Shown: positions 26,587 through 61,100 of the stretch, in pieces | Layout: every line of letters begins with the position of its first letter | Numbering within the stretch: the stretch's first letter is position 1 | The notes under the pieces: generated by a model | Database searches by the model: none | What the model saw: only the letters and a program-made list of their open reading frames with translations | Told to the model about the DNA's origin: nothing | Position numbers and translations under genes: made by a program | Assembly: GCF_020463795.1 (NCBI RefSeq) | Contig: NZ_CP080025.1 | Span: 2,539,501 to 2,603,500, forward strand | Direction of reading: 5' to 3' | Source: Echinicola marina | GTDB taxonomy: Bacteria > Bacteroidota > Bacteroidia > Cytophagales > Cyclobacteriaceae | Length of the DNA stretch: 64,000 nt

Positions 26587-27183
26587 ATGTTTAAAACTGA
26601 GAGAAATATTGACAAGGAAAAAGTCATTGCACTTATCTCAGGTTCTGAAGAGGCATTTGATCACTTGTTCAGGAAGTATTCAAAAAAAATCTACCATGTC
26701 TCCAGAAAAATGCGTTTAGGGCATGAGGATGCAGAAGGAGTGGTCCAAGAAGTATTTATCAAGGTATGGAATAACCGGGAGCGTCTGGATGCGAAACTTT
26801 CCTTCAATGCCTATTTGATCGCAATTGTGAGGTCTATCGTTATCAGACAGATCCAACGAAAGGCTAAACTGACTTCTTATCAGGCATATCAATTACCTTT
26901 TTTGGATGAAAAGGATACAGCTACGGAAGATTATGTGATTTTTTCAGATATGATGGATATCTCCTCAAAGGCTGTGGAAAGTCTTCCTCCGAGGCAAAAA
27001 CAGGTGTTCATGATGAAGAGTTTTGATCATTTGAGTGTAGATGAAATAGCGGAGAAGCTTCAAGTCTCCAGAAAAACAGTAAAGAACCAAATTTTTAGGG
27101 CAAGCAAATCACTAAAAGAGAAATTAATGGAAAGTGAGATTATTTCTTTGATAGGATTTATGTGCTTGGTTTCCAGTATTTAA
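26587..27183 (+). CDS. ECF RNA polymerase sigma factor, FecI-like (module 2)
   Basis: A 198-residue group IV sigma factor. Region 2 includes HEDAEGVVQEVFIKVWNNRE and region 4 includes ESLPPRQKQVFMMKSFDHLS and the helix-turn-helix KLQVSRKTVKNQIFRASKSL. It ends in a hydrophobic tail (IISLIGFMCLVSS) after region 4, a feature shared with the module 3 sigma and absent from module 1; it may contact the membrane or the anti-sigma. Between it and the FecR gene is a promoter-like element almost identical to that in module 3. The gene is expected to control the following fecR-susC-susD and perhaps the glycosidase genes. Confidence 0.93.
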   Translation: MFKTERNIDKEKVIALISGSEEAFDHLFRKYSKKIYHVSRKMRLGHEDAEGVVQEVFIKVWNNRERLDAKLSFNAYLIAIVRSIVIRQIQRKAKLTSYQAYQLPFLDEKDTATEDYVIFSDMMDISSKAVESLPPRQKQVFMMKSFDHLSVDEIAEKLQVSRKTVKNQIFRASKSLKEKLMESEIISLIGFMCLVSSI

Positions 27184-27226
27184 TAAATATTTCAAAAAAA
27201 ATATTAATATTTTTTTTGTGGTGACT

Positions 27227-27250
27227 GGGTCTTTTCATGTCCTTATGTCT
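27227..27250 (+). promoter_or_regulatory. Predicted ECF-sigma promoter of fecR, module 2
   Basis: GGGTCTTTTCATG (27227-27239) and TGTCT (27246-27250) have the layout of an ECF -35 and -10: 15 bp lie between the end of GGT and TGTCT. The same words, with identical spacing, lie in the same place in module 3. The fecR ATG is 25 bp after the -10, giving a short leader. Confidence 0.65.
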
Positions 27251-27275
27251 ATATAATTATAGTAACACAAGGTAA

Positions 27276-28310
27276 ATGGACAAGAGAAAACAGTTCGAGG
27301 ATTTTATTGCGGGGAAACTTTCCAATGAGGAAGCAAGGGCTTTTTTGACATGGTTGATGTCTCAGGAAGGAGAGGATGAACTTTCTGCTACCATCGATGA
27401 AGAATGGTCTGAAAGGGCAAAGGAAAGAGAGTATCCGGAATATGATATGGAGAAGCTCTTGAGCAGAACCAAGATAGCAAAAGGAGAAGGGAGTACTTTG
27501 CGCCTTTCTAGGGAAGAAAAGCGGAGTGATCATGCTTCAAAGAGCGGCGCTCATAAATTCCCTTGGTTGAGGTTAGTCGCGGGGTTGGTAATTCTTTTTT
27601 CATTGTCTTTTCTTTTAACTAAATGGGGAGAGGAGCCTGTTACTGAGCCAGACATATCCAGCATAGAGATGGTTACCAGAAAGAATCCTTCTGGAGTTAA
27701 AACACGGATACACTTACCTGATGGTTCTGTGGTTTATTTGAATGCTGAAAGTACATTAAGTTATCCCAAAGATTTTATTAGCCATAGAGAAATTCGCCTA
27801 AGTGGGGAAGCTTTTTTTGAGGTGAAAAAGGATAGTTTACATCCTTTTTCGGTGACCAGTGATCGCTTGACCACGGTGGCCTTGGGGACTACATTTAATA
27901 TTAGGGCCTTTGAATCAGATGGCGCAGTGGAGGTAACCTTGGCAAGTGGAAAGGTGAGGGTAAGTGATTCGCAAACACGCCAATCTTTGACGCTGCTTCC
28001 TGGGGAGGCGGCCAGTATAAAAGCAGGAACTGAGGAATTAGAAAAATATACTGCAGATGTCTCCATGGTCACTCAGTGGGTCAAGGGGATTTTGGTGTTT
28101 AAGAATACCTCATTCAAGGAAATCATCAAAAGGTTAGAGCGCTGGTACGGAGTAGAAATCCATTTACAAGGAGAAATTGCTAATGAAAAATGTTCAGGTG
28201 AATTTATGGAAGGAGAGTCATTGGCAAATGTGCTGAAGGTGTTGAGTTACTCCGTTGAGTTTGAATACAAAATTGAAGGAAATCAAGTGATTATTATCCA
28301 AAACCAATAA
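27276..28310 (+). CDS. FecR-family anti-sigma factor (module 2)
   Basis: A 344-residue single-pass inner-membrane anti-sigma factor. The cytoplasmic part covers residues 1-95, the transmembrane helix about 96-113 (WLRLVAGLVILFSLSFLL), and the periplasmic FecR domain about 125-260 with LPDGSVVYLNAESTLSYP, LSGEAFFEVKKDSLHPF and ALGTTFNIRAF. A DUF4974 domain follows (FKEIIKRLERWYGVEIHLQG). It is expected to hold the upstream sigma until the STN domain of the next gene signals glycan binding. The gap to susC is 158 bp and carries a hairpin. Confidence 0.94.
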   Translation: MDKRKQFEDFIAGKLSNEEARAFLTWLMSQEGEDELSATIDEEWSERAKEREYPEYDMEKLLSRTKIAKGEGSTLRLSREEKRSDHASKSGAHKFPWLRLVAGLVILFSLSFLLTKWGEEPVTEPDISSIEMVTRKNPSGVKTRIHLPDGSVVYLNAESTLSYPKDFISHREIRLSGEAFFEVKKDSLHPFSVTSDRLTTVALGTTFNIRAFESDGAVEVTLASGKVRVSDSQTRQSLTLLPGEAASIKAGTEELEKYTADVSMVTQWVKGILVFKNTSFKEIIKRLERWYGVEIHLQGEIANEKCSGEFMEGESLANVLKVLSYSVEFEYKIEGNQVIIIQNQ

Positions 28311-28345
28311 CGATAACTTATGAAATAGAGCATGTCATGAAAAGA

Positions 28346-28376
28346 ACCTGGAAGGTACTGCTAATACCCTCCAGGT
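28346..28376 (+). promoter_or_regulatory. Hairpin between fecR and susC, module 2
   Basis: ACCTGGA (28346-28352) plus GGTA pairs with TACC plus TCCAGGT (28370-28376), interrupted by a single A/C mismatch, around a 7-nt loop. No U-tract follows. It lies 36 bp after fecR and 92 bp before susC, the same placement as the module 1 hairpin though unrelated in sequence. Confidence 0.6.
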
Positions 28377-28468
28377 AAACATCGAATCAATCAATAGCAA
28401 TGAGAGGGTTTGGCGATGCTCTGTTGCTATGATCAGTTTAATCCAATGTTTCAACTAATTGTAAAATT

Positions 28469-31400
28469 ATGAATAAATACTTACGATTAATAATCATGTC
28501 AACCAAGTACGCTTTGTACGGGTGCTTGATCATGGTTCTTGCTATGTCTTCTGTTGCTGCTGAGTCAGTTAAAGCGCAGGTGAAAAGTATAGATGAGGTG
28601 GTGGTAGAGCTTCACAAATCCGATGTTTCCTTAAAGGAAATTTTGGAAGAAATAGAGCATAAAACCCCATTCCATTTCTTTATGGTGGATAAAGGGATGG
28701 ATACCAACATGAAGATCACCCTTAAAGAAAGAAAATCCACTGTGGCAGATCACTTAAAAGAGATCGCCAAGCAGTCCAAATTGAAATTTAAGCAGGTCAA
28801 TGAGACCATTAGCGTAAATAAATCCGGAAGAAACAAGGCTGTTTTTGTTCAGATAAAACAAATCACCATATCTGGCCGGATTACTTCTGAGAGTGAACCT
28901 GAAGGGATTCCTGGAGTCACTGTTAGGCTGAAAGGAGGAAATACAGGTACTGTTACAGATATCGATGGAAGGTTTACCTTCAATGTCCCTGATGAAAATT
29001 CGATAATCATCATCAGTTCTATAGGTTATAAACCTGTGGAGATTACTGTGGGGAACCAACAGACATTCAATGTACAATTGGAAGAAGATACCAAGGCATT
29101 GGACGAAGTAGTCGTTGTGGGTTATGGAACACAGAAAAAGGTCAACTTGACTGGAGCTGTAAGTCAAGTTACTTCAGAAATGCTAGAAAACCGGCCTGTA
29201 GCCAATATTGGACAAGCGCTTCAGGGTACGATAGCCAATCTAAACGTGGGTATTTCCAATGGTAGTCCTAATACCGTTCCATCGTTTAATGTACGTGGAG
29301 GTACTTCATTTTCAGGGAATTCATTTACCAATGGAAGTCCTTTGATCCTTGTAGATGGTGTAGAGATGGATATTAACCAGCTTAATCCTGAGGATATTGA
29401 AAGTGTTTCTGTCCTTAAAGACGCTGCTTCTGCAGCGATTTATGGGGCAAGGGCTGCCTATGGTGTGATGCTGGTAACCACCAAGAAGGGAGCTAGTGCA
29501 GAGGGAACTAAGGTTACATATAGTAATTCATTTCAGTGGAACAGGCCATCTGCAGTTCCGGACTTGTTAGATGCCTATACTATTCAAGATGCTGCTATCA
29601 AAGCCATTGAACTACAGAATCAAACACCTTCTTCAGATATGCTGGAAAAACGGGATAGGATCAAAGCATATATGGATGATCCTAATAATATGGACCCGTA
29701 TTACATGGATGAAGGAGGTAATATCATTTGGATAGGAAATACAAGACCATATGAAGAGGCGTTGAGGAGTTCATCTCCCATGCAAAAGCATAACCTGAAT
29801 CTTTCGGGAGGCACTAAGAAAACATCCTATTATGCTTCTTTGGGATATCAGGGGCAAGAAGGTCTGTATAAAATCAATACGGATAAATTTCAGCGATACA
29901 ATATGATGCTAAACGTAAGTTCAGAGGTGTCGGATTGGTTTTCGGTAGATTTTAGAACTTCTTATAGCAAGTCTAATTATTCAGAGCCTGTTAGCCCCGC
30001 GGGTAAAGGAGGTTGGTGGACGGCCATGTCCCAAGAGGCCGGAAGAAATATCAATATGCCTGTCATGACCCCAGAAGATTCACCTGTCGGGGCCATGTAT
30101 ACGGATAATATACTTTCTTTTATGGACTATGGGTCCAGGAATAATGAGAACAAAGAGCATATATTAATGGCAGTGGCGCCAACCATCCACTTGCTAAAAG
30201 GATGGGATATTAAGGCGAATATCTCCTATAAATCATATGATTTTAGAAGAAAGCAGTTTATTCCTGAGTTGGAGCGAATTGATAACAGGTGGGATGCTCC
30301 TACCACGGTACACACTAATCCAAGTTCTGTACAAAGATGGAGTCAACACTCGGATCAATACACAATAAATGTGTTCTCGGATTATTCATTGAACTTGGAT
30401 AAACATGAATTTTACCTGCTTGGTGGTTTTAACCAAGAATGGTATGAGTATGATTATTTGGGTGGAAGGGGTGAGCAAATCTTGACACCTTTCATCCCGG
30501 TGATCAGCCAAACTTTAGGCAATGAATATGCTTATGACAGTGAATCACATTGGGCAATTAGAGGAGCTTTTTATCGATTCACTTATAATTATGACAATCG
30601 ATACCTACTTGAATCAAATGGGCGATATGACGGTACGTCCCGTTTTCCTACAGATAGGCGGTTCAAGTTTTTCCCTTCTTTGTCAGGTGCTTGGAGGATT
30701 TCAGAGGAAGACTGGGCTTCAGGTTTGAAACCCCTGGTAAATGAATTGAAGTTAAGAGCTTCATATGGTAGTTTAGGAAACCAAAACGTGGCCAATTATA
30801 TCTATGTACCTTCTTATGGCACGATTGCACAAGTCAGCTATATCTTTAACAATAATCGTCCGGTAGGGATTACCCCTCCTGGTTTGGTGGATGCCAATTT
30901 GACTTGGGAAACCGCAACGACAATAGATTTCGGTGTTGACGTGGCCTTGTTTGACAAGTTGGATGTTTCCTTTGACTGGTACGAAAGGTCTACTTCCGAT
31001 ATTTTGGTAGCTGGAGATAAGTTTCCTGCAGTATTAGGTACAGGAGCTCCTACTAAAAACTCTGGAGAGATGAAAACCACTGGTTGGGAATTGACCACCA
31101 AATGGAGAGATAAACTGGATAATGGTTTAAGGTATGATATTGCTTTGAACTTAAGTGACTATCAAAGTGAGATAGTGAGCTTCGACGGTAATCCTAATAA
31201 TCTATTAAGTGGTCTCTATGTGGGACAAAAAATGGGGGAAATCTGGGGCTATGAAACTGAGGGGATATTTCAGACCCAAGAACAAATAGATAATGCACCT
31301 AGCCAAGAATTGATCAATTCAGGCTTATGGTATCCTGGCGATGTACAGTATAAGGATGTCAACGGTGATGGAGAGATAGGACCAGGAGCAAGTACAGTGG

Positions 31401-31900
31401 ATGATGCTGGAGATAGAAGAATAATTGGTAACAATACTCCTAGGTATCGGTTTGGTGTTAACATGAATGCCTTTTGGAAAGGGTTTGACCTCAATGTGTT
31501 TTTCCAAGGTGTTGCTAAAAGAGATGTTTGGATAGGAAACAACCTGTTCTGGGGAGCGATCGCTGGAGGTTCGGGTACATATGAAGTGTATAATAATTCA
31601 TGGACGCCAGAAAGAACAGATGCTTATTTCCCTGCTTACAGAGGTAGTGGAGCCAATAGACAAGTACAAACTAGGTACTTGCAAGATGCATCTTATATCA
31701 GATTGAAAAATTTGACCTTAGGCTATACGCTTCCGGCATACCTGACAGAACGAATAAATTTGGACAAAGTAAGGGTGTATACCTCAGCCTACAATATTTG
31801 GGAAGGAACCAAGGTGCCGGATACATTTGACCCAGAGGTTCTAAGTGGTAATTATCCTATGCTTAGATCCATGGCGATAGGTCTTCAAGTTACATTTTAA
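28469..31900 (+). CDS. SusC/RagA-family TonB-dependent outer-membrane receptor (module 2)
   Basis: A 1143-residue oligosaccharide importer. A signal peptide precedes ESVKAQ; ATGs at 28469 and 28496 (MSTKYALYG) are both possible starts. The STN domain lies near residues 45-115 (LKEILEEIEHKTPFHFFMVD), the carboxypeptidase-D-like domain at about 130-210 (ITISGRITSESEPEGIPG), and then the TonB box and plug (DEVVVVGYGTQKKVNLTGAV, VRGGTSF, DAASAAIYGARAAYGVM). The barrel ends in aromatic AIGLQVTF, as expected for BAM-dependent insertion. The STN domain marks it as a signalling receptor. susD begins 18 bp downstream, so the pair is co-transcribed. Confidence 0.96.
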   Translation: MNKYLRLIIMSTKYALYGCLIMVLAMSSVAAESVKAQVKSIDEVVVELHKSDVSLKEILEEIEHKTPFHFFMVDKGMDTNMKITLKERKSTVADHLKEIAKQSKLKFKQVNETISVNKSGRNKAVFVQIKQITISGRITSESEPEGIPGVTVRLKGGNTGTVTDIDGRFTFNVPDENSIIIISSIGYKPVEITVGNQQTFNVQLEEDTKALDEVVVVGYGTQKKVNLTGAVSQVTSEMLENRPVANIGQALQGTIANLNVGISNGSPNTVPSFNVRGGTSFSGNSFTNGSPLILVDGVEMDINQLNPEDIESVSVLKDAASAAIYGARAAYGVMLVTTKKGASAEGTKVTYSNSFQWNRPSAVPDLLDAYTIQDAAIKAIELQNQTPSSDMLEKRDRIKAYMDDPNNMDPYYMDEGGNIIWIGNTRPYEEALRSSSPMQKHNLNLSGGTKKTSYYASLGYQGQEGLYKINTDKFQRYNMMLNVSSEVSDWFSVDFRTSYSKSNYSEPVSPAGKGGWWTAMSQEAGRNINMPVMTPEDSPVGAMYTDNILSFMDYGSRNNENKEHILMAVAPTIHLLKGWDIKANISYKSYDFRRKQFIPELERIDNRWDAPTTVHTNPSSVQRWSQHSDQYTINVFSDYSLNLDKHEFYLLGGFNQEWYEYDYLGGRGEQILTPFIPVISQTLGNEYAYDSESHWAIRGAFYRFTYNYDNRYLLESNGRYDGTSRFPTDRRFKFFPSLSGAWRISEEDWASGLKPLVNELKLRASYGSLGNQNVANYIYVPSYGTIAQVSYIFNNNRPVGITPPGLVDANLTWETATTIDFGVDVALFDKLDVSFDWYERSTSDILVAGDKFPAVLGTGAPTKNSGEMKTTGWELTTKWRDKLDNGLRYDIALNLSDYQSEIVSFDGNPNNLLSGLYVGQKMGEIWGYETEGIFQTQEQIDNAPSQELINSGLWYPGDVQYKDVNGDGEIGPGASTVDDAGDRRIIGNNTPRYRFGVNMNAFWKGFDLNVFFQGVAKRDVWIGNNLFWGAIAGGSGTYEVYNNSWTPERTDAYFPAYRGSGANRQVQTRYLQDASYIRLKNLTLGYTLPAYLTERINLDKVRVYTSAYNIWEGTKVPDTFDPEVLSGNYPMLRSMAIGLQVTF

Positions 31901-31918
31901 TCCAAAAAAGTCTCAATC

Positions 31919-33700
31919 ATGAAAAAAATATATATCGTAATAACATGCTTTGCAGGTCTCCTTTGGGGGTGTAATGATGAATTCATGGAACGTTACCCCT
32001 TGGACCAGATCAGTGATGAAAATTTCTGGAGGACAGAGCAGGATCTAGAGTTGTATTGTAACAATTTCTACCCTACTTACATTAAAGGTTTCGGCTCTGG
32101 TTGGGGAACAAATTCTGTAGCTCCCTATGGTTATAATGAAGCTATTGCATATGGTGATGTGATTACTGATAATGGAGCACCTCAATCCTATTCAAAAGTT
32201 ACTGCTGATCAATATAATGGTCATATCAGTGGAGGAAGTGGAAGTGGTGGATGGAGCTGGAGTGATATGCGAGAATTTAATTATTTCTTGGATAACTATC
32301 AGAGAGGTGATATAGATCCTGCGGTTAGAAATGTATATGCAGGGGAAATCTTGTTTTTCAAGGCCTGGGATTATTTCAAAAAGGTAAAGACCTTTGGGGA
32401 TGTGCCATGGTTGACACATGTGGTGCAAACCAATTCACCTGAGTTATTGGCACCGAGGACGCCAAGAGCAGAAGTGATGGATTCTGTATTGCACATTTTG
32501 GATAAGGCAATAGGGTACCTGCCCGAAAAAGGTACGGAAAAGCCAGATCGTTTGAACAAAGATGTGGCTTTGCATTTAAAGTCTAGGATCTGTCTTTATG
32601 AAGGGACCTATAGAAAATACCACACAGAATTGGGATTGGATGAGACTAAGTTCTTGGAGGAAGCAGTTGACGCAGCAGAAAAATTGATGGGAGGCACTTA
32701 TAGCCTTTATTCAACAGGTGATGCTGTCAATGATTACAACGATCTTTTTGCCACATATAGTTATGATGGGAACCCAGAAGCTATACTATGGAAAGAATAT
32801 TCAGAAGATCTAACCATGGGAGTAGCTTTTAGTCGTTATTATGCCCAGAATTTACGTCATAGACATGGAGCGACGAGGTCATTGGTAGATGAGTATCTCT
32901 GTGAAGATGGGTTGCCTATTGCTGTTAGTCCATTGTTCATGGGGAAAGATTCCATCCAGCGAGAAATGATGAATCGTGACCCAAGATTACCTCAGACAGT
33001 TGCAAATTTCGGGACCTATAACCTTCAAGCAGGTGTCCAAGGGGCGAATAATGCTCCTAAACCAAATATTCCAGGACTTAATGGGAATAAATGTCCTACT
33101 GGTTACAGAGTGGCTAAATGGTTTTTGAATGATCCTGCAGATTGGGATCGTGTAACTAATGGGATGCAAGCGGCATTGGTGTTTAGGTATGCTGAAGTAC
33201 TATTGAACTATGCAGAAGCCAAATATGAGTTAGGTCAGCTTGATCAGGCCGTGTTGGACGAGACGGTTAATGCGATTCGTGAAAGAGTGGATATGCCTCC
33301 TTTGGTAATGGGGAATATTCCTGAAGATCCAATTATGGATGGAAATTACGCCACGTATTGCAGTTATGTTCCAGAGCCTGTTTTGCGAGAAATTAGAAGA
33401 GAAAGAAGGGTAGAATTGGCTTTTGAAAGTTTCAGATGGGATGACTTAATGAGATGGAAGGCTGGCCGTTTCTTAGAAATACCAGTTGAGGGAATCAAGT
33501 TTGTACAGGAGCAATTCCCAACTGTAGTAGTGGATAAAGATGTCTTTTTGAGTGAAGATGGCTATATCTTGCCTTACTACCAAACACTTCCTGACGGACG
33601 AAAATTTGATGAGGAGAAACAGTATCTTTTCCCAATTCCAATAGAGGATCTGGTATTGAACCAAAATCTCGAACAAAACCCTGGATGGGAGTCCAACTAA
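31919..33700 (+). CDS. SusD/RagB-family glycan-binding lipoprotein (module 2)
   Basis: A 593-residue surface lipoprotein. The lipobox LLWGC gives lipidated C18, followed by NDEF, the acidic signature of surface export. Family blocks include AGEILFFKAWDYFKKVKTFG, FRYAEVLLNYAEAKYELG, REIRRERRVELAFESFRWDD and the closing LFPIPIEDLVLNQNLEQNPG. The protein should pair with the SusC just upstream. A very strong terminator 28 bp after the stop separates it from the glycosidase genes, so those are probably transcribed from their own promoter or by read-through. Confidence 0.95.
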   Translation: MKKIYIVITCFAGLLWGCNDEFMERYPLDQISDENFWRTEQDLELYCNNFYPTYIKGFGSGWGTNSVAPYGYNEAIAYGDVITDNGAPQSYSKVTADQYNGHISGGSGSGGWSWSDMREFNYFLDNYQRGDIDPAVRNVYAGEILFFKAWDYFKKVKTFGDVPWLTHVVQTNSPELLAPRTPRAEVMDSVLHILDKAIGYLPEKGTEKPDRLNKDVALHLKSRICLYEGTYRKYHTELGLDETKFLEEAVDAAEKLMGGTYSLYSTGDAVNDYNDLFATYSYDGNPEAILWKEYSEDLTMGVAFSRYYAQNLRHRHGATRSLVDEYLCEDGLPIAVSPLFMGKDSIQREMMNRDPRLPQTVANFGTYNLQAGVQGANNAPKPNIPGLNGNKCPTGYRVAKWFLNDPADWDRVTNGMQAALVFRYAEVLLNYAEAKYELGQLDQAVLDETVNAIRERVDMPPLVMGNIPEDPIMDGNYATYCSYVPEPVLREIRRERRVELAFESFRWDDLMRWKAGRFLEIPVEGIKFVQEQFPTVVVDKDVFLSEDGYILPYYQTLPDGRKFDEEKQYLFPIPIEDLVLNQNLEQNPGWESN

Positions 33701-33728
33701 TAAACTTTAGCAAGTTAGGGCTGATAGA

Positions 33729-33762
33729 GTAAGAAGAGGCAATTTTGCCTCTTCTTACTCCT
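33729..33762 (+). terminator. Rho-independent terminator after susD, module 2
   Basis: A perfect 14-bp stem, GTAAGAAGAGGCAA and TTGCCTCTTCTTAC with a TT loop, is followed by TCCTTTT. Confidence 0.9.
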
Positions 33763-33980
33763 TTTATTGATTTATCAAATAAATATCATTTTTCACGGGG
33801 AACCATGAGGGGTTGGGATGATGAAAAAGCTGTTTTATACTTATGACAATCAGTCTTAGTTATTGTCTAGTAAATGATAATAAAGTGTCTTTGATACTTG
33901 CTGAGGAAAATGAGCAAAATGTATTTTGGGTTGTAGGCATAGAGAACTTGTTTTACAGCCTTTTTCAATTAAGCGAATAA

Positions 33981-36083
33981 ATGAATTATTTAAAGAGCCA
34001 AAAGGGTAACTTAATACCTAAACCAACTTTATTCTCAAGTATTCTAATCATTTTCATACTATTAGGAAGCGCTTCGAGTTTATTAGCCCAAGGGCGAAAG
34101 GAAATTGATTTTAATCAGGAGTGGCTTTTTAAGAAAGGAGCCAATGATTATGATAAGGGTGTTTCTTTTGCCCTGGAAGAATGGAAGGAAGTGACTGTTC
34201 CTCATACCTATAATAGTGAGGATATGCAGCTGGGCAAGGATTTTTATACAGGGGACGGTTTTTATCAGAAAATATTCACAGTAGCAGATTCTCTGAAGGA
34301 AAAGCGTTTGTTTCTCCGTTTTGAAGGAGTAGGTTCAGTAGCTGAGGTTTATGTCAATGGCCGTTTTTTGGGAGAACATAAGGGGAGCTATTCGGCATTT
34401 GCCTTTGAGATTAGCCATTCTGTAAACTATGGTGAAAAAAACACCATCCTGGTAAAGACCAATAATGAGGCAAGAAAAGATGTTTTGCCGGTTAATCATT
34501 TTTTGTTTCCTATCTATGGGGGGATTTATAGACCTGTATCACTTATTATCACCGATAAGGTGAACATCAAGGTGACCGATCATGCTTCTCCAGGAATATT
34601 TATTCGTCAAAAAAATGTCTCAGCCAAGCAAGCAACTCTGAGAGTAAAAGCAAAACTTGAGAATAAGGAAAATACTTTTAGGCATGTATTACTCCGTACG
34701 GAGGTGAAAAATGCAGATGGCAAAAGTGTTAAGGTCATTGAGGAACCCCTGTCAATCAGTCCACAAGGTGTGACTTTGGGAGAGCAGGAATTGATAATTA
34801 AGCAACCGCACCTTTGGCAAGGTGTTGAAGATCCGTACTTATATACGCTCACCACATCATTGATAGATGGGGATCGTGTGCTTGATGCGGTGACCCAGCC
34901 TTTAGGAATAAGATCGGTTGAAATTAAGGCAGGCAAGGGAGTCTTTTTAAACGGAAAGGCTTATCCAATGCATGGTGTTACCAGACACCAGGATCGATGG
35001 GGGTATGGTAATGCACTCAGTAGGTCACAGCATTTGGAAGATATGATGTTGATTAAAGAAATCGGTGCGACCACGATACGTTTGGCCCATTATCAACAGG
35101 CAGAAGATATGTACGCTATAGCAGATAGTTTAGGCTTTTTGATTTGGGCAGAAATTCCTTTTGTTAATACTTACACCTTAGAGGAAGCTGCAAATGCCAA
35201 GCAACAAATGACGGAACTGGTCCGTCAGAATTTTAACCATCCTTCCATCTATATTTGGGGCATTCACAATGAAGTGTATTCCAAAACGGAAGATGAGTAT
35301 GTGGCGGTGCTGTCAAGGCAACTTAATGATCTCGCCAAAACCAATGATCCGGACCGGCCTACCGTAGCTGTAAGCGGCTATGGAGAAATGTGGCGCCCAG
35401 CCAATCTGGCCACTGATGTGCAAGGGATGAATCGTTACTATGGCTGGTATGAGGGAAAGATTGGAGATATGAAACAATGGGTACAAGGCTTGGAAGAAGC
35501 GTATCCTGAGCACATTGTAATGCTTGCAGAATATGGAGCAGATGGTAATATGGATCAAGGAGCTGAAAAATTACCTGAAAGCAGGAATCCTGTCAGTGGA
35601 AAGTTTTTTCCTGAAAACTATCAAACCGAAACTCATATTCAACAGTGGGCCATTATAGAGGACCATCCCTATATAACTGCCTCCTATTTGTGGAATATGT
35701 TTGAGTTTGCTGTGCCCATGTGGAACCGCGGTGGGGTGAATGCAAGAAACCTCAAAGGCCTGATTACTTTTGATCGGAAAAGAAAGAAAGACAGTTTTTA
35801 CTGGTACAAAGCCAACTGGAATCCTGAACCGATGATCCACTTGGCCAATAGCCGTGATAATAAACGTACTGAAGCAAATACTACAGTGCAGCTTTTTACC
35901 AATTTATCTTCTGTGGAGCTGACAGTCAACGGGCAGAAAGTTGCCAAGGAACTGGAGGGTGTCAATTCACATCACAAAAAGTTTGAGGTAAGCCTTCAAA
36001 AAGGAAATAATATAATTGTTGCGGAAGGACAGGATGATGCAGGCAATGTGATTTCAGATAAAATGGAATGGATACTGGATTGA
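33981..36083 (+). CDS. Glycoside hydrolase family 2 (beta-galactosidase/glucuronidase-like)
   Basis: A 700-residue secreted or periplasmic exo-glycosidase, with a signal peptide ending near LLAQ (residue 36). The GH2 jelly-roll sugar-binding domain covers about 40-200 (WKEVTVPHTYN, RLFLRFEGVGSVAEVYVNG), an Ig-like sandwich about 200-310, and the TIM barrel about 315-610. The acid/base is E431 (GIHNE) and the nucleophile E517 (LAEYGADG). A short DUF4982-like C-terminal domain follows. A beta-galactosidase or beta-glucuronidase activity is likely; it is much shorter than the LacZ-type enzyme downstream and not its duplicate. The gene heads a run of two fucosidases beginning 31 bp after it. Confidence 0.9.
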   Translation: MNYLKSQKGNLIPKPTLFSSILIIFILLGSASSLLAQGRKEIDFNQEWLFKKGANDYDKGVSFALEEWKEVTVPHTYNSEDMQLGKDFYTGDGFYQKIFTVADSLKEKRLFLRFEGVGSVAEVYVNGRFLGEHKGSYSAFAFEISHSVNYGEKNTILVKTNNEARKDVLPVNHFLFPIYGGIYRPVSLIITDKVNIKVTDHASPGIFIRQKNVSAKQATLRVKAKLENKENTFRHVLLRTEVKNADGKSVKVIEEPLSISPQGVTLGEQELIIKQPHLWQGVEDPYLYTLTTSLIDGDRVLDAVTQPLGIRSVEIKAGKGVFLNGKAYPMHGVTRHQDRWGYGNALSRSQHLEDMMLIKEIGATTIRLAHYQQAEDMYAIADSLGFLIWAEIPFVNTYTLEEAANAKQQMTELVRQNFNHPSIYIWGIHNEVYSKTEDEYVAVLSRQLNDLAKTNDPDRPTVAVSGYGEMWRPANLATDVQGMNRYYGWYEGKIGDMKQWVQGLEEAYPEHIVMLAEYGADGNMDQGAEKLPESRNPVSGKFFPENYQTETHIQQWAIIEDHPYITASYLWNMFEFAVPMWNRGGVNARNLKGLITFDRKRKKDSFYWYKANWNPEPMIHLANSRDNKRTEANTTVQLFTNLSSVELTVNGQKVAKELEGVNSHHKKFEVSLQKGNNIIVAEGQDDAGNVISDKMEWILD

Positions 36084-36114
36084 TGATTTGAGTCCAATTT
36101 TAATTGATATAGAG

Positions 36115-37569
36115 ATGAGTTTAAGGAGATTCGTATTAGGTACATTATTGTTGCTGTCGGTGATAAGTGCAGAAAAGGTACAGGCTCAAATTCCGCATAG
36201 TCAACCAAGGTCTTCAGTGGCCCTGGATCATGGTTCACATCGGTTGGGGAGAAGGACAGACCAGATGATGGAAAGATGGAGGAACTATGGTTTAGGACAA
36301 TTTATCCATTGGGGAGTCTATTCGATTACGGCTGGTAGATGGGATGGAAAAGATTATCCGGGTGCTTCTTCCTGGATTCGTTCGTGGTCAGAAATGCCCA
36401 AAGAGGCTTATGATCAGTTGTACCAGCAGTTTAACCCAGATCGTTTTGATCCAAAATCATGGGCAAAGCAAGCTAAAACCATGGGGGCAAAATATATGAT
36501 CATTACGACCAAGCACCATGATGGTTTTTGTTTATGGCCAAGTAAATACACCAAATACGACATAGCGAGCACGCCTTATAAGCAAGATCTTATTGGTCCC
36601 ATGGTGGAGGCTTATGAGGCAGAAGGGATTGATGTATACTTATATTTTTCGGTGATGGATTGGAATCATCCAGGATTTAGAACGGAACTGAAAACTTCTA
36701 AAGACCGGGAAGCATATGAGGAATTCAAGACCTTTACCCGAAATCAAATTCTGGAATTATTGGAAAGATATCCAAACACTAAAGGAATTTGGTTTGATGG
36801 AACTTGGGATGCCGCTTGGAAAGAACAAGCTGTCTTTGCGGATAAATTGGAAACGGAAATGAGGGAAATGATACCAGGGATCATCATAGGAAGCAGATTT
36901 CGACCGGATGATTATGGCAATAGACATTTTGATAGCAATGGTGATTTGATGGGAGATTATGAGCAAGGTTGGGAAAGAAAGTTGCCTAAGACGATAGAAG
37001 AGGTCAAAGGAAATGATTGGGATTGTGTGATGACAGTTCCTGAAAATCAATGGGGATATCATTATGACTGGAAAGGCCATGTAAAGAGCAGTTTTGAATT
37101 GATAGAAATGTTGGTGAGGTCGGTTTCTTTGGACGGGAATTTTGTCTTGAATTTCGGTCCTGACAGGTATGGTGAATTTAGACAGGAAGAAAGGAAACTA
37201 TTCGCAGAGATTGGAGATTGGATGGAGGCGAACCAAGAAGCTGTTTACGATTGTGGTTACTTAAACTGGGAAAAGCAGGACTGGGGCTATTATACACAGG
37301 ATAGGAACACTGGAAAGATCTATATGGTCGTGTTCAATATGCCTATCAATGGCGCTTTGAGGGTCAAGACTCCTGAAAAAGTTCAACTGGACAAGGTTTA
37401 TGGATTAAAAGATCCTAGTAAGGTCTATGTTCCAGAGGAGATACATAAAGATGAATATTTTGTTCATTATCCAGTGGAGAAATCTTCGGGATCTCCGTTT
37501 GTGCTCGTTATTGAGTCATCTTTAGTGGATAAAGAAGGTGGAAAGGCCTATCAAAAACCAAAGACCTGA
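36115..37569 (+). CDS. GH29 alpha-L-fucosidase, copy 1
   Basis: Exo-enzyme removing alpha-L-fucose by a retaining mechanism. I start at ATG 36115 (484 residues), which gives a clean signal peptide MSLRRFVLGTLLLLSV..VQAQ; the open frame reaches a TTG at 36088. GH29 blocks are FGLGQFIHWGVYS-like GLGQFIHWGVYS, MGAKYMIITTKHHDGFCLWP, and the nucleophile region IWFDGTWD with D228. The C-terminal beta-sandwich includes NFVLNFGPDRYG and YMVVFNMPINGALRVKTP. It is separated by 187 bp from a closely related second copy. The signal peptide lacks a lipobox, so it is likely periplasmic. Confidence 0.93.
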   Translation: MSLRRFVLGTLLLLSVISAEKVQAQIPHSQPRSSVALDHGSHRLGRRTDQMMERWRNYGLGQFIHWGVYSITAGRWDGKDYPGASSWIRSWSEMPKEAYDQLYQQFNPDRFDPKSWAKQAKTMGAKYMIITTKHHDGFCLWPSKYTKYDIASTPYKQDLIGPMVEAYEAEGIDVYLYFSVMDWNHPGFRTELKTSKDREAYEEFKTFTRNQILELLERYPNTKGIWFDGTWDAAWKEQAVFADKLETEMREMIPGIIIGSRFRPDDYGNRHFDSNGDLMGDYEQGWERKLPKTIEEVKGNDWDCVMTVPENQWGYHYDWKGHVKSSFELIEMLVRSVSLDGNFVLNFGPDRYGEFRQEERKLFAEIGDWMEANQEAVYDCGYLNWEKQDWGYYTQDRNTGKIYMVVFNMPINGALRVKTPEKVQLDKVYGLKDPSKVYVPEEIHKDEYFVHYPVEKSSGSPFVLVIESSLVDKEGGKAYQKPKT

Positions 37570-37756
37570 TGGGGGCATTGTCATAGAAACCAAAGGGGGG
37601 GTACCCCTGATTATTCATTAGTGATCGTAGTGAGGACTGATTTTATAGCATTTTCAGCCCGTAATACTTGTGCGCCGTGGCGTAGATAAGCTAATGCATA
37701 TTCTGGGTCAAACAAGAATTTAAATTATTTTAACCAATATAACTTTGTTAATTAAG

Positions 37757-39208
37757 ATGAAAAAGTTGTTATGCGGAGCGGCATTATCTGCACTATTGGC
37801 AGGAAGCAATGCTGAATTGGCTGTGGCGCAAACGCCAAAGAATACGCCAAGAACCTCCATAGCTTTGAAGCATGGGGCACATGATCTGGGGAAAAGAACC
37901 GATCCAATGATGGAAAGGTGGAGGAATTATGGTTTGGGCCAATTTCTCCATTGGGGTGTGTATGCGATAGCTGGAGGGCACTGGGAAGGTAAATATTATG
38001 GCGGAGCAGCAGAATGGATTCGTTCTTGGAGAGAAATGCCCAAGGATGCTTATGATAATCTCTATAAGCAATTTGATCCGAAGGACTTTGATGCTAAAGC
38101 TTGGGCCAAGCAAGCCAAGGATATGGGGGCCAAATACATGATCATTACGACAAAGCACCATGATGGGTTCTGCCTATGGCCAAGTGAGTTTACAGACTAT
38201 GATGTGAGTAATTCTCCTTATAAAAAGGATATTATCGGGCCATTGGTGGAAGCTTATGACGCAGAGGGGATAGATGTGTACCTTTATTTTTCTGTGATTG
38301 ACTGGAACCATCCGGGCTATAGGTCGGTGTTGAAGACCGAAGAAGACCGGGAGGAATATGAGGAGTTCAAAGAGTTTACCAAAAACCAATTGGTGGAGTT
38401 GCTAGAAAGGTATCCGAGTACCAAGGGGCTTTGGTTTGATGGTACCTGGGACGCTGCTTGGAAAGAGCAAGCGGCCTTTGCAGATGAGTTGGAGGCTGAG
38501 CTCAGAGAAATGGTTCCAGGCTTGATTATAGGAAGTAGATTCCGACCGGATGATTATGGCAATAGGCATTTTGATAGCAATGGAGACCTGATGGGAGACT
38601 ATGAACAAGGCTGGGAAAGAAAATTGCCAAAGACCATAGAGGATGTTAAAGGGAACGATTGGGATTGTGTGATGACAGTGCCCGAAAACCAATGGGGCTA
38701 CCATTCGGATTGGAGAGGGCATGTGAAGACCAGTTTTGAGCTCATTGAGATGCTGGTTCGTTCAGTAGCCTTGAATGGAAATTTTGTCTTGAATTTTGGT
38801 CCAAACGGTGAAGGAGGAATCAGAAAAGAAGAGACTCAATTGGCTGCAGAGATCGGAGATTGGATGGATGTCAATCATGAAGCAATCTATGATTGTGGTT
38901 ACCTGGACTGGGAAAAACAGGACTGGGGATATTATACACAGGACCGCAAGACAGGGAAGATTTATATGGTTGTGTTCAATATGCCACTGAATGGTGCACT
39001 AAGGGTAAAGACCCCGGATAAGGTGAAATTGGACAAGGTGTACTCTCTTCAAGATGGTAAGAAGTTTACACCGGAAGAAATCCATAAAAATGAATATTTT
39101 ATTCATTACAATTCTGAAGAGAAAATTAAATCTCCAATGGTGATTGTCATTGAGTCTACTTCTGGAGAGGAAGGAAGTGACCAGGTTTATCAAAAGGCAA
39201 AGACTTAA
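37757..39208 (+). CDS. GH29 alpha-L-fucosidase, copy 2 (tandem duplicate)
   Basis: A 483-residue paralogue of the preceding gene, roughly three-quarters identical over the mature protein by eye. The best start is ATG 37757 (signal peptide ending AVAQ); the frame extends to a TTG at 37745. The nucleophile is again D228 in LWFDGTWD, and the block from GSRFRPDDYGNRHFDSNG through VPENQWGYH is almost unchanged. Differences concentrate near the active-site entrance (AGRWDGKDYPGA versus GGHWEGKYYGGA), the signal peptide and the C-terminal 40 residues, which would fit divergence in linkage or aglycone preference. A rho-independent terminator follows 27 bp after the stop. Confidence 0.93.
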   Translation: MKKLLCGAALSALLAGSNAELAVAQTPKNTPRTSIALKHGAHDLGKRTDPMMERWRNYGLGQFLHWGVYAIAGGHWEGKYYGGAAEWIRSWREMPKDAYDNLYKQFDPKDFDAKAWAKQAKDMGAKYMIITTKHHDGFCLWPSEFTDYDVSNSPYKKDIIGPLVEAYDAEGIDVYLYFSVIDWNHPGYRSVLKTEEDREEYEEFKEFTKNQLVELLERYPSTKGLWFDGTWDAAWKEQAAFADELEAELREMVPGLIIGSRFRPDDYGNRHFDSNGDLMGDYEQGWERKLPKTIEDVKGNDWDCVMTVPENQWGYHSDWRGHVKTSFELIEMLVRSVALNGNFVLNFGPNGEGGIRKEETQLAAEIGDWMDVNHEAIYDCGYLDWEKQDWGYYTQDRKTGKIYMVVFNMPLNGALRVKTPDKVKLDKVYSLQDGKKFTPEEIHKNEYFIHYNSEEKIKSPMVIVIESTSGEEGSDQVYQKAKT

Positions 39209-39234
39209 TTAATTAGATAGAATGGTATAGAGGG

Positions 39235-39264
39235 AAAAGCAGGGGGAAACTCCTGCTTTTTTTC
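39235..39264 (+). terminator. Rho-independent terminator after the fucosidases
   Basis: AAAAGCAGG pairs with CCTGCTTTT around an 8-nt loop and runs into a T7 tract. Confidence 0.92.
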
Positions 39265-42640
<3,376 letters not shown>

Positions 42641-42651
42641 ACTGAAGAGCT

Positions 42652-43959
42652 ATGAGATTTAAAAGTTTTTTAACTGTATCATTTATTGCAGGCCTGATGG
42701 CCTGCAATAATGTTTCCTTGGAAGAAATTGAGAAGGAATATTTGTCAGAAGTATCTATTCCAGTGGGAGGGAATACTTATGTGACATCAGGCTATGAAGG
42801 TGCAAAAATCAGTAGAAGAAGTGGTGCTGTTGAGGACTGGACCAACGAAGAGGCCGTGCTAAGTACTTATTTTAAATTACCCCAAGCTGAAAAGGCTTTA
42901 TTGCAATTGGTATTGGATAGTAGGGAGTCTTCTAGTGAATTGCAGGTGACTGTAGGGGAAACTGTCCAAACTATTGCTTTGGAGGCAGGAGCTGAAGATA
43001 CCGTGAGTGTGGGCTTGTTTGAACTTCCTGCAGGTTATGCCCAAGTGGATGTTCAAGGGCTGTCTAAAGCAGGAGCGACTTTCCCTTCACTAAAGTCCCT
43101 TATTGTAAGAACAAAAAATGATTTGGAGATTACCTATGTAAAGGATAATGAAAGTAATCGCTTTTACTGGGGTAGAAGAGGTCCTTCTGTTCACTTGTCC
43201 TATACATTGCCTAAGGACAAAGATTTCAAATGGTTTTATAATGAGGTGACCGTTCCTGAAGGTGAAGACCCTAATGGATCCTATTATATGGCCAATGGAT
43301 TTGGGGAAGGTTATTTTGGCATGCAGGCCAATTCCGATGATGAAAGAAGGGTGCTGTTTTCGGTTTGGAGTCCCTTTCATACCAATAATCCAGATGAAAT
43401 TCCTGAAGACCAACAAATCAAATTGTTGAAAAAGGGAGAGGGGGTTAATACAGGTGAGTTTGGAAATGAAGGGTCCGGTGGACAGAGCTTTTTCAGGTAC
43501 AAATGGATCACAGGAAATACCTATAAGTTCCTTAACTCTGTTGAGCCAGATGGCAATGGAAATACTATTTATACGGCTTATTTCTTTGCTCCAGAGGTAG
43601 GAGAGTGGAAGTTGATCGCCAGTTTCTTGAGGCCTAAAACAGATACATGGTATAAGCGACCACATTCATTTCTGGAAAATTTCAGAGACAGTAATGGCTA
43701 TATAGGCAGAAAAGGACTTTATGCGAACCAATGGGCAATGGATACCGAAGGGAATTGGATAGAGCTTACAGAAGCTAAATTTACTGGTGATGATATTGCC
43801 AGGAGAGGCTACAGGCAGGATTTTGCTGGTGGAGAGGAAAACGGAGTCTTCTTTATGAGAAATGGAGGATTCTTTAATGAAATGGTTGATTTAAATAGTA
43901 TGCATACAAGAGAAGCTACGGGTAATCAGCCGGAAATTGATTTTTCAAGCTTGGATTAA
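42652..43959 (+). CDS. DUF3472 lipoprotein with DUF5077-like N-terminal domain
   Basis: A 435-residue lipoprotein (lipobox GLMAC, C18). Residues about 35-160 form a DUF5077-like beta-sandwich; residues about 185-375 match the DUF3472 family, with the aromatic-rich blocks NGFGEGYFGMQANSDDERR, VLFSVWSPF, GQSFFRYKWITGNTYKFL and GEWKLIASFLRPKT. DUF3472 proteins are common in Bacteroidota polysaccharide loci but have no established activity that I know of; conserved Trp, Asp and Glu residues would suit a carbohydrate-binding or cleaving role. It is co-transcribed with the LacZ-type gene, so it probably handles the same galactosylated glycan. Confidence 0.85.
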   Translation: MRFKSFLTVSFIAGLMACNNVSLEEIEKEYLSEVSIPVGGNTYVTSGYEGAKISRRSGAVEDWTNEEAVLSTYFKLPQAEKALLQLVLDSRESSSELQVTVGETVQTIALEAGAEDTVSVGLFELPAGYAQVDVQGLSKAGATFPSLKSLIVRTKNDLEITYVKDNESNRFYWGRRGPSVHLSYTLPKDKDFKWFYNEVTVPEGEDPNGSYYMANGFGEGYFGMQANSDDERRVLFSVWSPFHTNNPDEIPEDQQIKLLKKGEGVNTGEFGNEGSGGQSFFRYKWITGNTYKFLNSVEPDGNGNTIYTAYFFAPEVGEWKLIASFLRPKTDTWYKRPHSFLENFRDSNGYIGRKGLYANQWAMDTEGNWIELTEAKFTGDDIARRGYRQDFAGGEENGVFFMRNGGFFNEMVDLNSMHTREATGNQPEIDFSSLD

Positions 43960-43985
43960 AAGCCGTTTCGATAGCAAAAACTTGG

Positions 43986-44016
43986 AGCCCCCTGCCTTTC
44001 GGTTGGGGGCTTTTGT
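43986..44016 (+). terminator. Rho-independent terminator after the DUF3472 gene
   Basis: AGCCCCC pairs with GGGGGCT around a 12-nt loop and is followed by TTTGTTT. It begins 27 bp after the stop. Confidence 0.88.
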
Positions 44017-44171
44017 TTGCCAAATAATATGCTGAAATAATAAAATGCAAAGTTTTGTCTATTGAATGTAAAGGTTGTGAGTGTTTTTGTGATAAAAGAA
44101 ATTGATACGAAAATTTATTTTTTTACTTTTACGGCCATTATTGAAAAGTGAAGTAGGCAATTACAAGTTTA

Positions 44172-44831
44172 ATGACGGTATTGAATAGGCTTTATGAGGA
44201 GAAGACTTCCGAAATAAAAAAGGAAATTCCGGTGATTCAGGAGTATGCTGAAACTGAATTATGGATAGCTTTTTTAAAAGGGAGCAATGCAGCACTATCA
44301 AAAATATATCGTGCCTATTCCAATAAGTTGTTTACCTACGGTAGACAGTTTACATCCAATGAAGTATTGATTAAGGATGCCATACAGGATGTTTTTTTTA
44401 AGCTGGTTGATCAGAAAGATCAACTTGGAGTAGCCCAATCCGTTAAGTTTTACCTTTTTTCAAGTTTTAGGAGGGTGCTTCTCAGGTCTCTTAAAAGGGA
44501 AAGGAAGTATGTTGATGAGGAAGAAGATGGGGAATCTTTTTATTTTTTAGTAGATGAGGATCATTTTGCCATGGATGCACTTCTGAATGCAAAGCAAAAA
44601 GAGATGGTTCAAAATGCCTGTAATGAATTGACTGCCCGTCAAAGGGAGATTTTAAACCTTAGATTTTTCGAAAACCTAAGCTATATAGAAATAGCGGAAA
44701 TGCTGGATCTTGCAAATGCCAAAACGGTGAGAACGATGCTCTATCGGATTCTTAATAAACTTTCAGATAAACTACGTCCATTCAAGAGAAGTTTATTGTC
44801 CCTTATTTTCCTAATATCTTTTCTTTTCTAG
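44172..44831 (+). CDS. ECF RNA polymerase sigma factor, FecI-like (module 3)
   Basis: A 219-residue group IV sigma factor with a 30-residue N-terminal extension before region 2 (LIKDAIQDVFFKLVDQKD). Region 4 is ELTARQREILNLRFFENLSY with a helix-turn-helix at AKTVRTMLYRILNKL. The last 14 residues (SLLSLIFLISFLF) are strongly hydrophobic, as in the module 2 sigma. A cytoplasmic sigma would not normally need such a tail, so peripheral membrane contact near its FecR is plausible. The gene starts module 3 and is followed by the same ECF-type promoter element as in module 2. Confidence 0.92.
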   Translation: MTVLNRLYEEKTSEIKKEIPVIQEYAETELWIAFLKGSNAALSKIYRAYSNKLFTYGRQFTSNEVLIKDAIQDVFFKLVDQKDQLGVAQSVKFYLFSSFRRVLLRSLKRERKYVDEEEDGESFYFLVDEDHFAMDALLNAKQKEMVQNACNELTARQREILNLRFFENLSYIEIAEMLDLANAKTVRTMLYRILNKLSDKLRPFKRSLLSLIFLISFLF

Positions 44832-44907
44832 TGTGTTAAAAGTTTGTTAACGTAAGTTTTAGTATTATTAATTGAAATAAATTGTAAAAAATAATATTTC
44901 AATTAGT

Positions 44908-44930
44908 GGTCTTTTGATGCAGGTGTGTCT
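44908..44930 (+). promoter_or_regulatory. Predicted ECF-sigma promoter of fecR, module 3
   Basis: GGTCTTTTGATG (44908-44919) and TGTCT (44926-44930), 15 bp between GGT and TGTCT exactly as in module 2. The fecR ATG lies 38 bp after the -10. Confidence 0.65.
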
Positions 44931-44968
44931 CTTTATTAATACAAACGTAATAAAGAATACATTTTCAT

Positions 44969-46015
44969 ATGCAATTTGATCCTCAAACGGAAAAAGACTT
45001 TTTACTTAATGAACATTTTGTTCAATGGATAATGGCGCCTGATCATGAGTCGGATCGTTATTGGTCTAATTGGCTCCAGAAAAATCCGGGCAAGGCCAAT
45101 CTGATGAAACGGGCAAAAGAGAGTGTTCAGGGTTTGACGTTGAGGACTTTTGAAATTGATGAAGATGACAGCGAACTGATTCTTGATAGGATCATCAGGC
45201 ACCACAATAAGACAAAAGATGGATTGACGGAAAGATCAAGCGCTTATGTTTTATTAGATTTTTTGATGGCCAATAGGGTAGCAGCTGTTTTGGTCTTGGT
45301 TACTTTGTTTTTAGGGTTGCTGACATTGGATTTTCAACCAGAAACTCCTTCAGAAATAAAAAATGAAAAAATAGAATGGCTAACCAAAAGCAGTAAGGCA
45401 GGCACTAAAATGACTTTCCATCTTCCAGATGGTTCACTGGTGAAACTCAATTCCAACAGTTCAATTTCCTTTCCGGAAAGTTTTTCAGATAGTTTAAGAG
45501 AGGTGAAGCTTATCGGTCAGGCTTTTTTTGATGTGGAACATAATGAGGAGCTTCCCTTTGTAGTTGCTGCCGGTGATTTACAAATCAAAGTGATGGGGAC
45601 TTCCTTTGATGTAAATAATAAACCCGAAAATAAAGCACAGAAAGTTGCTCTTCTAAGTGGGAAGGTAAAAGTGATTACAGCTGATGGTATGATAGAGCAA
45701 CTTAGTCCTCTAGAAATGGTGAGCTATAGGAAATCAGATAACGAATTGGTTAAGGTGAAATTTGATCCCGAGGAAGTGATGGGCTGGAAAGACGGTATTA
45801 TAAAATTTGAGAATACAGACCATAAAGAAGTCTTTAAGATTTTAGAAGAATGGTATGATGTCAAAATACAAGTAGAAGATAATGTAAAGTTCAAGGGAGG
45901 AATAAACGGGAGGTATGAAAATGAAATCTTGGACAATGTGTTAAAAGGACTCTCCTATTCTGAGAATTTTAAATATAAGATCGAAAATAAAAAAGTGACC
46001 ATTTTCAAAATATAA
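44969..46015 (+). CDS. FecR-family anti-sigma factor (module 3)
   Basis: A 348-residue anti-sigma regulator. The cytoplasmic domain covers residues 1-100, one transmembrane helix about 104-122 (VAAVLVLVTLFLGLLTL), and the periplasmic FecR domain about 135-260 with LPDGSLVKLNSNSSISFP, LIGQAFFDVEHNEELPF and VMGTSFDVNN. DUF4974 follows with HKEVFKILEEWYDVKIQVED. It is intact even though the SusC it should listen to is frameshifted, so in the sequenced state the sigma of this module may be locked off or deregulated. The gap to susC is 93 bp with a hairpin. Confidence 0.94.
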   Translation: MQFDPQTEKDFLLNEHFVQWIMAPDHESDRYWSNWLQKNPGKANLMKRAKESVQGLTLRTFEIDEDDSELILDRIIRHHNKTKDGLTERSSAYVLLDFLMANRVAAVLVLVTLFLGLLTLDFQPETPSEIKNEKIEWLTKSSKAGTKMTFHLPDGSLVKLNSNSSISFPESFSDSLREVKLIGQAFFDVEHNEELPFVVAAGDLQIKVMGTSFDVNNKPENKAQKVALLSGKVKVITADGMIEQLSPLEMVSYRKSDNELVKVKFDPEEVMGWKDGIIKFENTDHKEVFKILEEWYDVKIQVEDNVKFKGGINGRYENEILDNVLKGLSYSENFKYKIENKKVTIFKI

Positions 46016-49353: not shown

Positions 49354-49371
49354 CCGAAACGAATTTAGAAG

Positions 49372-61093: not shown

Positions 61094-61100
61094 AGAGACG

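Follow-up and report, generated by a model that had tools for sequence, protein, structure and literature searches.

In a 64,000-nucleotide stretch of the Echinicola marina genome (contig NZ_CP080025.1, positions 2,539,501 to 2,603,500; the window), three modules are found in each of which a FecI-type sigma factor gene of the extracytoplasmic function (ECF) type is followed by a fecR gene. We consider it highly probable that the gap between these two genes holds, in modules 2 and 3, an ECF-type promoter read by the adjacent sigma factor and driving fecR, susC and susD but not the sigma gene, and that the likeness between the sites of modules 2 and 3 comes from a lysine at residue 166 of the module 2 sigma factor (sigma 2) together with a cytosine at promoter position -31. 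The likeness most probably reflects a changed DNA-reading residue in one sigma factor and not a regulatory connection between the two systems. An ECF -35/-10 promoter of fecR, as proposed for modules 2 and 3 in the initial annotation, is supported by a motif found de novo, by a test in which relatives were left out and both sites reached the floor, by footprints in the genus, and by covariation of base -31 with a contact residue; the adjacent sigma factor is its most likely reader. The features of these two modules are as follows.

26587..27183, forward strand: ECF (FecI-type) sigma factor of module 2 (sigma 2), Pfam Sigma70_r2/r4_2, recognition-helix K166
27226..27236, forward strand: predicted -35 block of the module 2 promoter, TGGGTCTTTTC (GGGTC = -35 to -31); 8/11 columns invariant in 6 genomes, leave-relatives-out p = 0.0033
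27247..27256, forward strand: predicted -10 block of the module 2 promoter, GTCTATATAA; 8/10 columns invariant against 0/10 in the spacer
27276..28310, forward strand: FecR (sigma regulator) of module 2, PF04773 and PF16344, first gene of the predicted transcript
28469..33700, forward strand: SusC-like (28469-31900) and SusD-like (31919-33700) genes of module 2 (Pfam), presumably co-transcribed with fecR
44172..44831, forward strand: ECF (FecI-type) sigma factor of module 3 (sigma 3; Pfam), arginine at the residue-166 position
44906..44916, forward strand: predicted -35 block of the module 3 promoter, GTGGTCTTTTG (GTC = -33 to -31); 9/11 columns invariant in 5 genomes, leave-relatives-out p = 0.0033
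44927..44936, forward strand: predicted -10 block of the module 3 promoter, GTCTCTTTAT; 9/10 columns invariant against 3/10 in the spacer
44969..46015, forward strand: FecR of module 3 (Pfam)
46109..51006, forward strand: SusC-like (46109-48883) and SusD-like (49372-51006) genes of module 3 (Pfam)

According to Pfam, all three modules encode an ECF sigma factor with regions 2 and 4 and then a FecR with FecR_C, and the TonB-dependent transporter downstream has Plug and carboxypeptidase-regulatory-like domains. The words from which the analysis started, GGTCTTTTCATG-N6-TGTCT at 27228-27250 and GGTCTTTTGATG-N6-TGTCT at 44908-44930, both on the forward strand, lie in the gap between sigma gene and fecR in modules 2 and 3. 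Their positions had been given correctly, and so had the distance of exactly 15 bp between GGT (ending at 27230 and 44910) and TGTCT (starting at 27246 and 44926). When both strands of the genome (5,693,670 bp) were searched, the shared pattern had two exact matches, the two window words, none at one mismatch and eight at two. Up to three mismatches there was no excess genome-wide (53+49 against 52+51 for a reversed-pattern control), and a wrong-spacing control with N5 in place of N6 gave no exact match; one of the three-mismatch matches, at 3721228, is also located directly before a FecR gene (locus L004). The module 2 pattern alone had one exact match and two with two mismatches, and at three mismatches it matched, among others, the site of module 3 and a place in the gap of L004; the module 3 pattern alone had one exact match and one with two mismatches. 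With totals at up to three mismatches of 24 and 4, resembling the 20 and 6 of the reversed controls, no wider regulon is seen for either pattern.

In the window genome the two sites are identical from -34 to -27 and in GTCT, and they differ at -36/-35 and in the 3' part of the -10 block; the best ungapped 23-mer is identical at 17 of 23 positions. This level was reached by 96 of the 406 pairs of own-genome gaps, compared with 38-61 in 12 shuffled sets. Raw pairwise identity lies within chance by shuffles and was dropped as evidence, so that the meaning of the words comes from their conservation in relatives and from the wider promoter class to which they belong.

The wider class was sought in sigma-FecR gaps drawn from the 30 FecR loci of the own genome, from 100 of the 101 FecR places found in three congeners and from further relatives; FecR genes number 26-40 in each of the four Echinicola-group genomes that were searched. 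The first set of 190 loci, less 10 without a sigma match and 6 duplicates, gave 174 gaps, and an extended set, in which relatives of the module 2 and 3 genes are overrepresented, went from 290 loci through 264 pairs to 239 unique ones. Two-block expectation maximization (EM), run de novo from random starts, yielded two forms with sharply peaked spacing, namely class A, TGAGTA-N15-GGcTATATa, and class B, GngGTCaTTTt ... gtCTcT (TGTCTcT in the de novo run), both of which were later refitted with one fixed register. The best log-likelihood reached 165 when 600 starts were used; two runs of 60 starts gave 148.5 and 124.5, and none of the 16 shuffled sets, also run with 60 starts, exceeded 64.7. 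The run scoring 124.5 had landed on conserved FecR start codons. EM with a zero-order background recovered A/T tracts only, and a three-class mixture was dropped after it had settled on the FecR start codons.

Since relatedness inflates the contrast between real and shuffled sets, the model was refitted for each gap with all sigma factors more than 45% identical excluded from training. In this leave-relatives-out test 36/174 gaps had a site at p ≤ 0.01 (1.7 expected), compared with 2/174 on the reverse complement. Both window sites, as well as the module 3 orthologues L122 and L123, were at the floor of the test (p = 0.0033). The same register is found in all three window modules, the distance between the -35 and -10 blocks being constrained, as its peak in the de novo EM indicates, and the -10 block begins 33, 29 and 42 nt before the fecR starts of modules 1, 2 and 3, respectively.

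Conservation in the genus points in the same direction. In six genomes for module 2 and five for module 3, the window genome being counted in both, the orthologues of module 2 keep TGGG.CTTT and GT.TATATA with 0/10 spacer columns invariant, and those of module 3 keep GTGGT..TTTG and GTCTCTTTA with 3/10 spacer columns invariant; the block-to-block distance is constant in all orthologues compared. Sigma 3 is 97% identical to its match in E. salinicaeni and 89% to that in E. shivajiensis (2 loci).

The class is also concentrated at one place in the locus. Among rows that were long enough (212 gaps, 196 regions upstream of sigma genes and 114 after FecR), sites at p ≤ 0.025 were found in 126/212 sigma-FecR gaps (5.2 expected), a figure that includes training data, which suggests that fecR lies inside a sigma-dependent unit. 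Upstream of the sigma genes they were found in 7/196 rows (4.8 expected), little or no excess in what is a test of sequence only, and after FecR no excess was seen (2/114; 2.8 expected). An enrichment upstream of FecR and SusC genes, which the initial annotation had made its check, is present before FecR genes as far as the promoter class is concerned; the exact word occurs only twice, and before SusC no enrichment was seen in those 114 rows. Motifs like those of sigma-A promoters (TTG ... TAnnTTTG), counted in 144 rows of each kind, numbered 12 upstream of sigma genes against 3.6 in shuffles (maximum 8) and 1 in the sigma-FecR gap against 2.9. Forms with one mismatch precede sigma 2 and sigma 3 in the window.

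The resemblance between the two sites can be traced to the recognition helix. When the columns of region 4 were compared with base -31, residue 166 of sigma 2 ranked first by z-score. With base -31 hidden from the choice of sites, and 140 of the 239 sites retained (posterior above 0.9), glutamate at 166 went with A in 61, T in 4, G in 4 and C in none, arginine with C in 42 and T in 8, lysine with C in 9, A in 2 and G in 1, and tyrosine with A in 4 and G in 5; the lysine rows with A or G (L019, L207 and L219) may be wrongly placed sites. In a sigma tree of 155 of the 239 rows (posterior above 0.8), from which column 166 was left out, the 61-tip clade of sigma 2 has A-31 in 52/52 E166 tips and C-31 in 9/9 K166 tips. 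The nine K166 tips, sigma 2 among them, form a clade nested among E166 sigma factors with a support of 98, and their promoters also have G at -34, where A is usual, and GT in place of GG in the -10 block. K166 is aligned by phmmer with the lysine (K170) of SigW TVKTRIHR, and R171 of sigmaE and K170 of SigW contact the template G opposite C-31 (PMC6713349). The covariation with residue 166 is an indirect basis on which the cognate sigma factor may be regarded as the one that recognizes the site.

Most likely, the two sites look alike because the sigma 2 lineage has K for E at 166 and C for A at -31. The kin of sigma 2 have TGAGTA...GGCTATATA promoters, from which the module 2 site deviates in the direction of the GTGGTC...GTCTC type belonging to sigma 3. 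The nesting of the K166 clade suggests that in the sigma 2 lineage TGAGTA was replaced by TGGGTC (by GGGAC or GGGCC in some of its members), a change that brought its promoters close to the GTGGTC promoters of the sigma 3 clade, and the resemblance of the module 2 and 3 sites looks convergent.

Module 1, which had been said to lack an equivalent, does have one, in the same register and kept in two congeners.

10942..11517, forward strand: ECF sigma factor of module 1 (sigma 1; Pfam), tyrosine at the residue-166 position
11889..11919, forward strand: putative promoter of module 1, GGGAGTAATTTC...GGATTTAGG, same 18-nt register from the -33 G to the -10 block, the latter 33 nt before the TTG of FecR
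11944..13026, forward strand: FecR of module 1 (Pfam), TTG start

The module 1 site is assigned to class A with a posterior of 0.94 and is retained in the congener loci L195 and L179. In the leave-relatives-out test another place was chosen in the window copy (L008; p = 0.25), and the module 1 place had p = 0.35 in L195 and 0.09 in L179, so that its support comes mainly from conservation, in addition to the fit to class A. Nor is sigma 1 the more different sigma factor, as had been stated, sigma 2 being 25% identical to sigma 1 and 26% to sigma 3.

Several observations weigh against promoters of this kind and against the explanation offered for their likeness. Of 3000 dinucleotide shuffles made from the two gaps, 535 attained the 17/23 identity, which is not significant. 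Kinship among the real rows adds to their contrast with shuffled sets in the EM, the starting seeds of the leave-relatives-out test were typed from motifs already seen, and the sample behind the 126/212 figure, which as stated includes training data, over-represents relatives of modules 2 and 3. In the leave-relatives-out test the module 2 orthologues L092 and L093 reached only p = 0.15 and p = 0.03, and only 5/29 own-genome gaps had p ≤ 0.05, so classes A and B do not describe all modules; 93/174 gaps were not above a posterior of 0.9. Upstream of sigma genes there is a slight excess at p ≤ 0.05 (17/196; about 9.6 expected), and no motif like that of sigma-A promoters was found before sigma 1. 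Other columns exceed residue 166 in raw mutual information with base -31, for which there is no clean code, 8/69 E166 sites having T or G. Switches from E to K or R amount to 2-3 independent pairs, too few for a sign test at 0.05; the phylogenetic count therefore proves nothing alone, and the structural contact is the stronger support. Finally, a phylum-wide sample of 29 loci, 24 of them with a sigma-FecR pair and one (L387) from the host's own family, had a site at p ≤ 0.05 in 1/24 gaps, which is the level of chance, and an extension of the site class to the phylum was rejected.

Some own-genome gaps may carry a third promoter form, TTTTTTGTCACCC ... ATGTCA in L017 and L019, whose gaps share a 23-mer at 22/23, the highest value among the 406 own-genome pairs. 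The word TTTCACCC, in the L002 and L011 gaps, is a further candidate for such a form. The own-genome FecR locus L006 has no sigma match within 1.5 kb upstream.

Cross-talk, raised as a possibility when the words were first noticed, would mean that each of the two fecR promoters is read by sigma 2 as well as by sigma 3, which would couple the two modules. Nothing beyond the shared letters (-34 to -27 and GTCT in the window genome) and the basic residue that both sigma factors have at the position reading -31 favours it, and we regard it as improbable. With clade matrices trained on 8 and 11 sequences, own sequence left out and orthologues included, the sites are separated by 14-16 bits. The sigma 2 matrix scores its own site at 27.8 bits and the module 3 site at 13.4, the third value among own gaps and about that of another match in the window (13.5 at 35649). 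The sigma 3 matrix scores its own site at 26.5 bits and that of module 2 at 10.1, fourth among own gaps, and neither cross value rises above the level of other matches in the window. Moreover, the likeness is not kept in relatives, since 17/23 in the window genome drops to 15, 14, 13 and 13 in four congeners in which both modules occur; the two sites also differ at -36/-35 and towards the 3' side of the -10 block, and the two sigma factors are just 26% identical. A recent duplication of promoter or module, by which the words would have been copied, could account for the gene order sigma-fecR-susC-susD common to modules 2 and 3, but it is hard to credit when sigma 2 and sigma 3 belong to different clades, each with support, the flanks of the two words do not match by eye and the kin of sigma 2 carry the different promoter named above, a difference which makes change a better explanation of the match than copying. 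The shuffles already cited would fit a functionless chance match in AT-rich gaps; such a match would hardly show conserved blocks beside a drifting spacer, p = 0.0033 at both sites with relatives left out, and covariation with a structurally known contact, and it too is given very little weight.

The conserved blocks might also be, or overlap, operator sites of another regulator instead of promoter elements. The fecR start sites required by a promoter are predicted ones, and inverted repeats occur in the gaps of both modules, which slightly lowers the confidence placed in a promoter. At 27193-27218, between the sigma 2 gene and its -35 block, there is a perfect 26-bp A/T palindrome (13+13 bp), and a 76% palindrome spans the module 2 -10 block (27241-27272). 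In module 3 a perfect 11-bp inverted repeat, with arms at 44869-44879 and 44895-44905 (TAATTGAAATA / TATTTCAATTA), ends at the -35 block; it is kept in 3/5 genomes (the window genome, L122, with paired changes in both arms, and L282) and absent in L123 and L284. The perfect repeats, however, lie upstream of the -35 blocks and not inside them, the module 2 palindrome is present in the window genome only (1/6), and the ECF-like spacing and the link between -31 and residue 166 fit a promoter, so that operators in place of promoter elements seem quite unlikely. An added upstream operator is compatible with the promoter, and an additional regulator is possible at module 3, to judge from its repeat. 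The 27193-27218 palindrome could also be a weak terminator of the sigma 2 gene.

For the ECF-type promoter between sigma gene and fecR the following course of events is proposed. Housekeeping transcription, probably from a sigma-A promoter as the motif enrichment suggests, would supply the sigma factor. The TonB-dependent SusC-like transducer and FecR would signal the substrate, whereupon the sigma factor would be freed or activated and, with RNA polymerase, would transcribe fecR-susC-susD from a start behind the gap promoter. Activation would then yield more importer and more of the brake, FecR, and the sigma level would not be raised, the sigma gene lying outside the unit. An inducer would accordingly raise brake and importer but not sigma, which is the negative-feedback design predicted here.

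It seems somewhat more probable than its opposite that many FecI-type sigma factors in the host's family are half-autoregulated in this sense, with a promoter inside the sigma/FecR pair that raises FecR and importer and not sigma, and that a partly readable code (E166 with A-31, R166 or K166 with C-31) lets paralogues such as sigma 2 re-target their promoters. If so, searches made upstream of sigma genes would have overlooked FecI-type promoters because of their place in the gap, and many sigma-promoter pairs, and with them the specificities of many FecI-type sigma factors in the family, could be read from sequence alone. The insulation among dozens of paralogues would become testable, and sugar-uptake loci could be assigned to their sigma factors.

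As to the neighbouring genes, module 2 is followed at 33981-43959 by genes for a GH2 protein, two alpha-L-fucosidases, a beta-galactosidase and a DUF3472/DUF5077 protein, and a sulfatase gene is located on the opposite strand at 23110-24546. The SusC-like protein of module 3 (46109-48883) has an N-terminal FecR_C match at residues 51-116, perhaps a signalling domain. Downstream of that module, at 51659-62072, a 3144-aa open reading frame is followed by a PorP/SprF gene (linked to type IX secretion).

The published systems are compared here on the basis of excerpts from the papers cited. The FecI/FecR/FecA system of Escherichia coli likewise has a FecI-type sigma factor, a FecR regulator, a TonB-dependent transducer and a dedicated target promoter, and in Fec systems FecR holds or activates the sigma factor according to the transducer. 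The FecI promoter of E. coli, however, precedes fecA, and fecIR transcription is not autoregulated (PMC9249621), whereas the site predicted here lies between sigma and fecR. Whether fecR belongs to the sigma-dependent unit is thus the point of variation and does not define the group as a whole. The pair BT1877/BT1876 of PUL24 in Bacteroides thetaiotaomicron is also a sigma/anti-sigma pair of a polysaccharide locus; its 5' end, mapped by rapid amplification of cDNA ends (RACE) and seen only in the anti-sigma mutant, differs from the present case in its position, 291 nt ahead of BT1875 and within the 3' portion of the anti-sigma gene, and the excerpts give no ECF motif (PMC11501099). ECF-type -10 motifs from mapped starts are available in the same phylum, with a CGT box in F. 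psychrophilum SM6 (PMC9723704) and as TGTT in B. thetaiotaomicron (PMC12596196), but they represent other sigma groups or sequences, and the excerpts describe no placement in a sigma-FecR gap. Among the literature matches listed, as far as their excerpts go, none was found to describe a Bacteroidetes promoter located between fecI and fecR.

The two-block promoters (-35 and -10) described here are of the kind modelled by ECF subgroup by Rhodius et al. 2013, where specificity comes from both blocks jointly and cross-talk between most subgroups is little (PMC3817407). The FecI-like groups ECF05-10 were left out of the upstream motif analysis there because they are not autoregulated, and a single joint model (ECF5) for groups 5-10 was inactive in the tests (PMC3817407); a promoter placed after the sigma gene would be missed by any search upstream of sigma genes. 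A general prediction of promoter bases from residues (sigma2 and sigma4 contacts), set up on autoregulated ECF sigma factors, has already been published (cited in PMC8103513), so that the idea of a code is not new in itself. In the recognition of the -35 element, the sigmaE complex (PDB 2H27) and SigW come closest to sigma 2, as R171 and K170, which read the G opposite C-31 (PMC6713349), are aligned with K166. The elements read by sigmaE and SigW are GGAAC and GAAAC; in the sigma 2 clade the usual combination is E166 and A-31.

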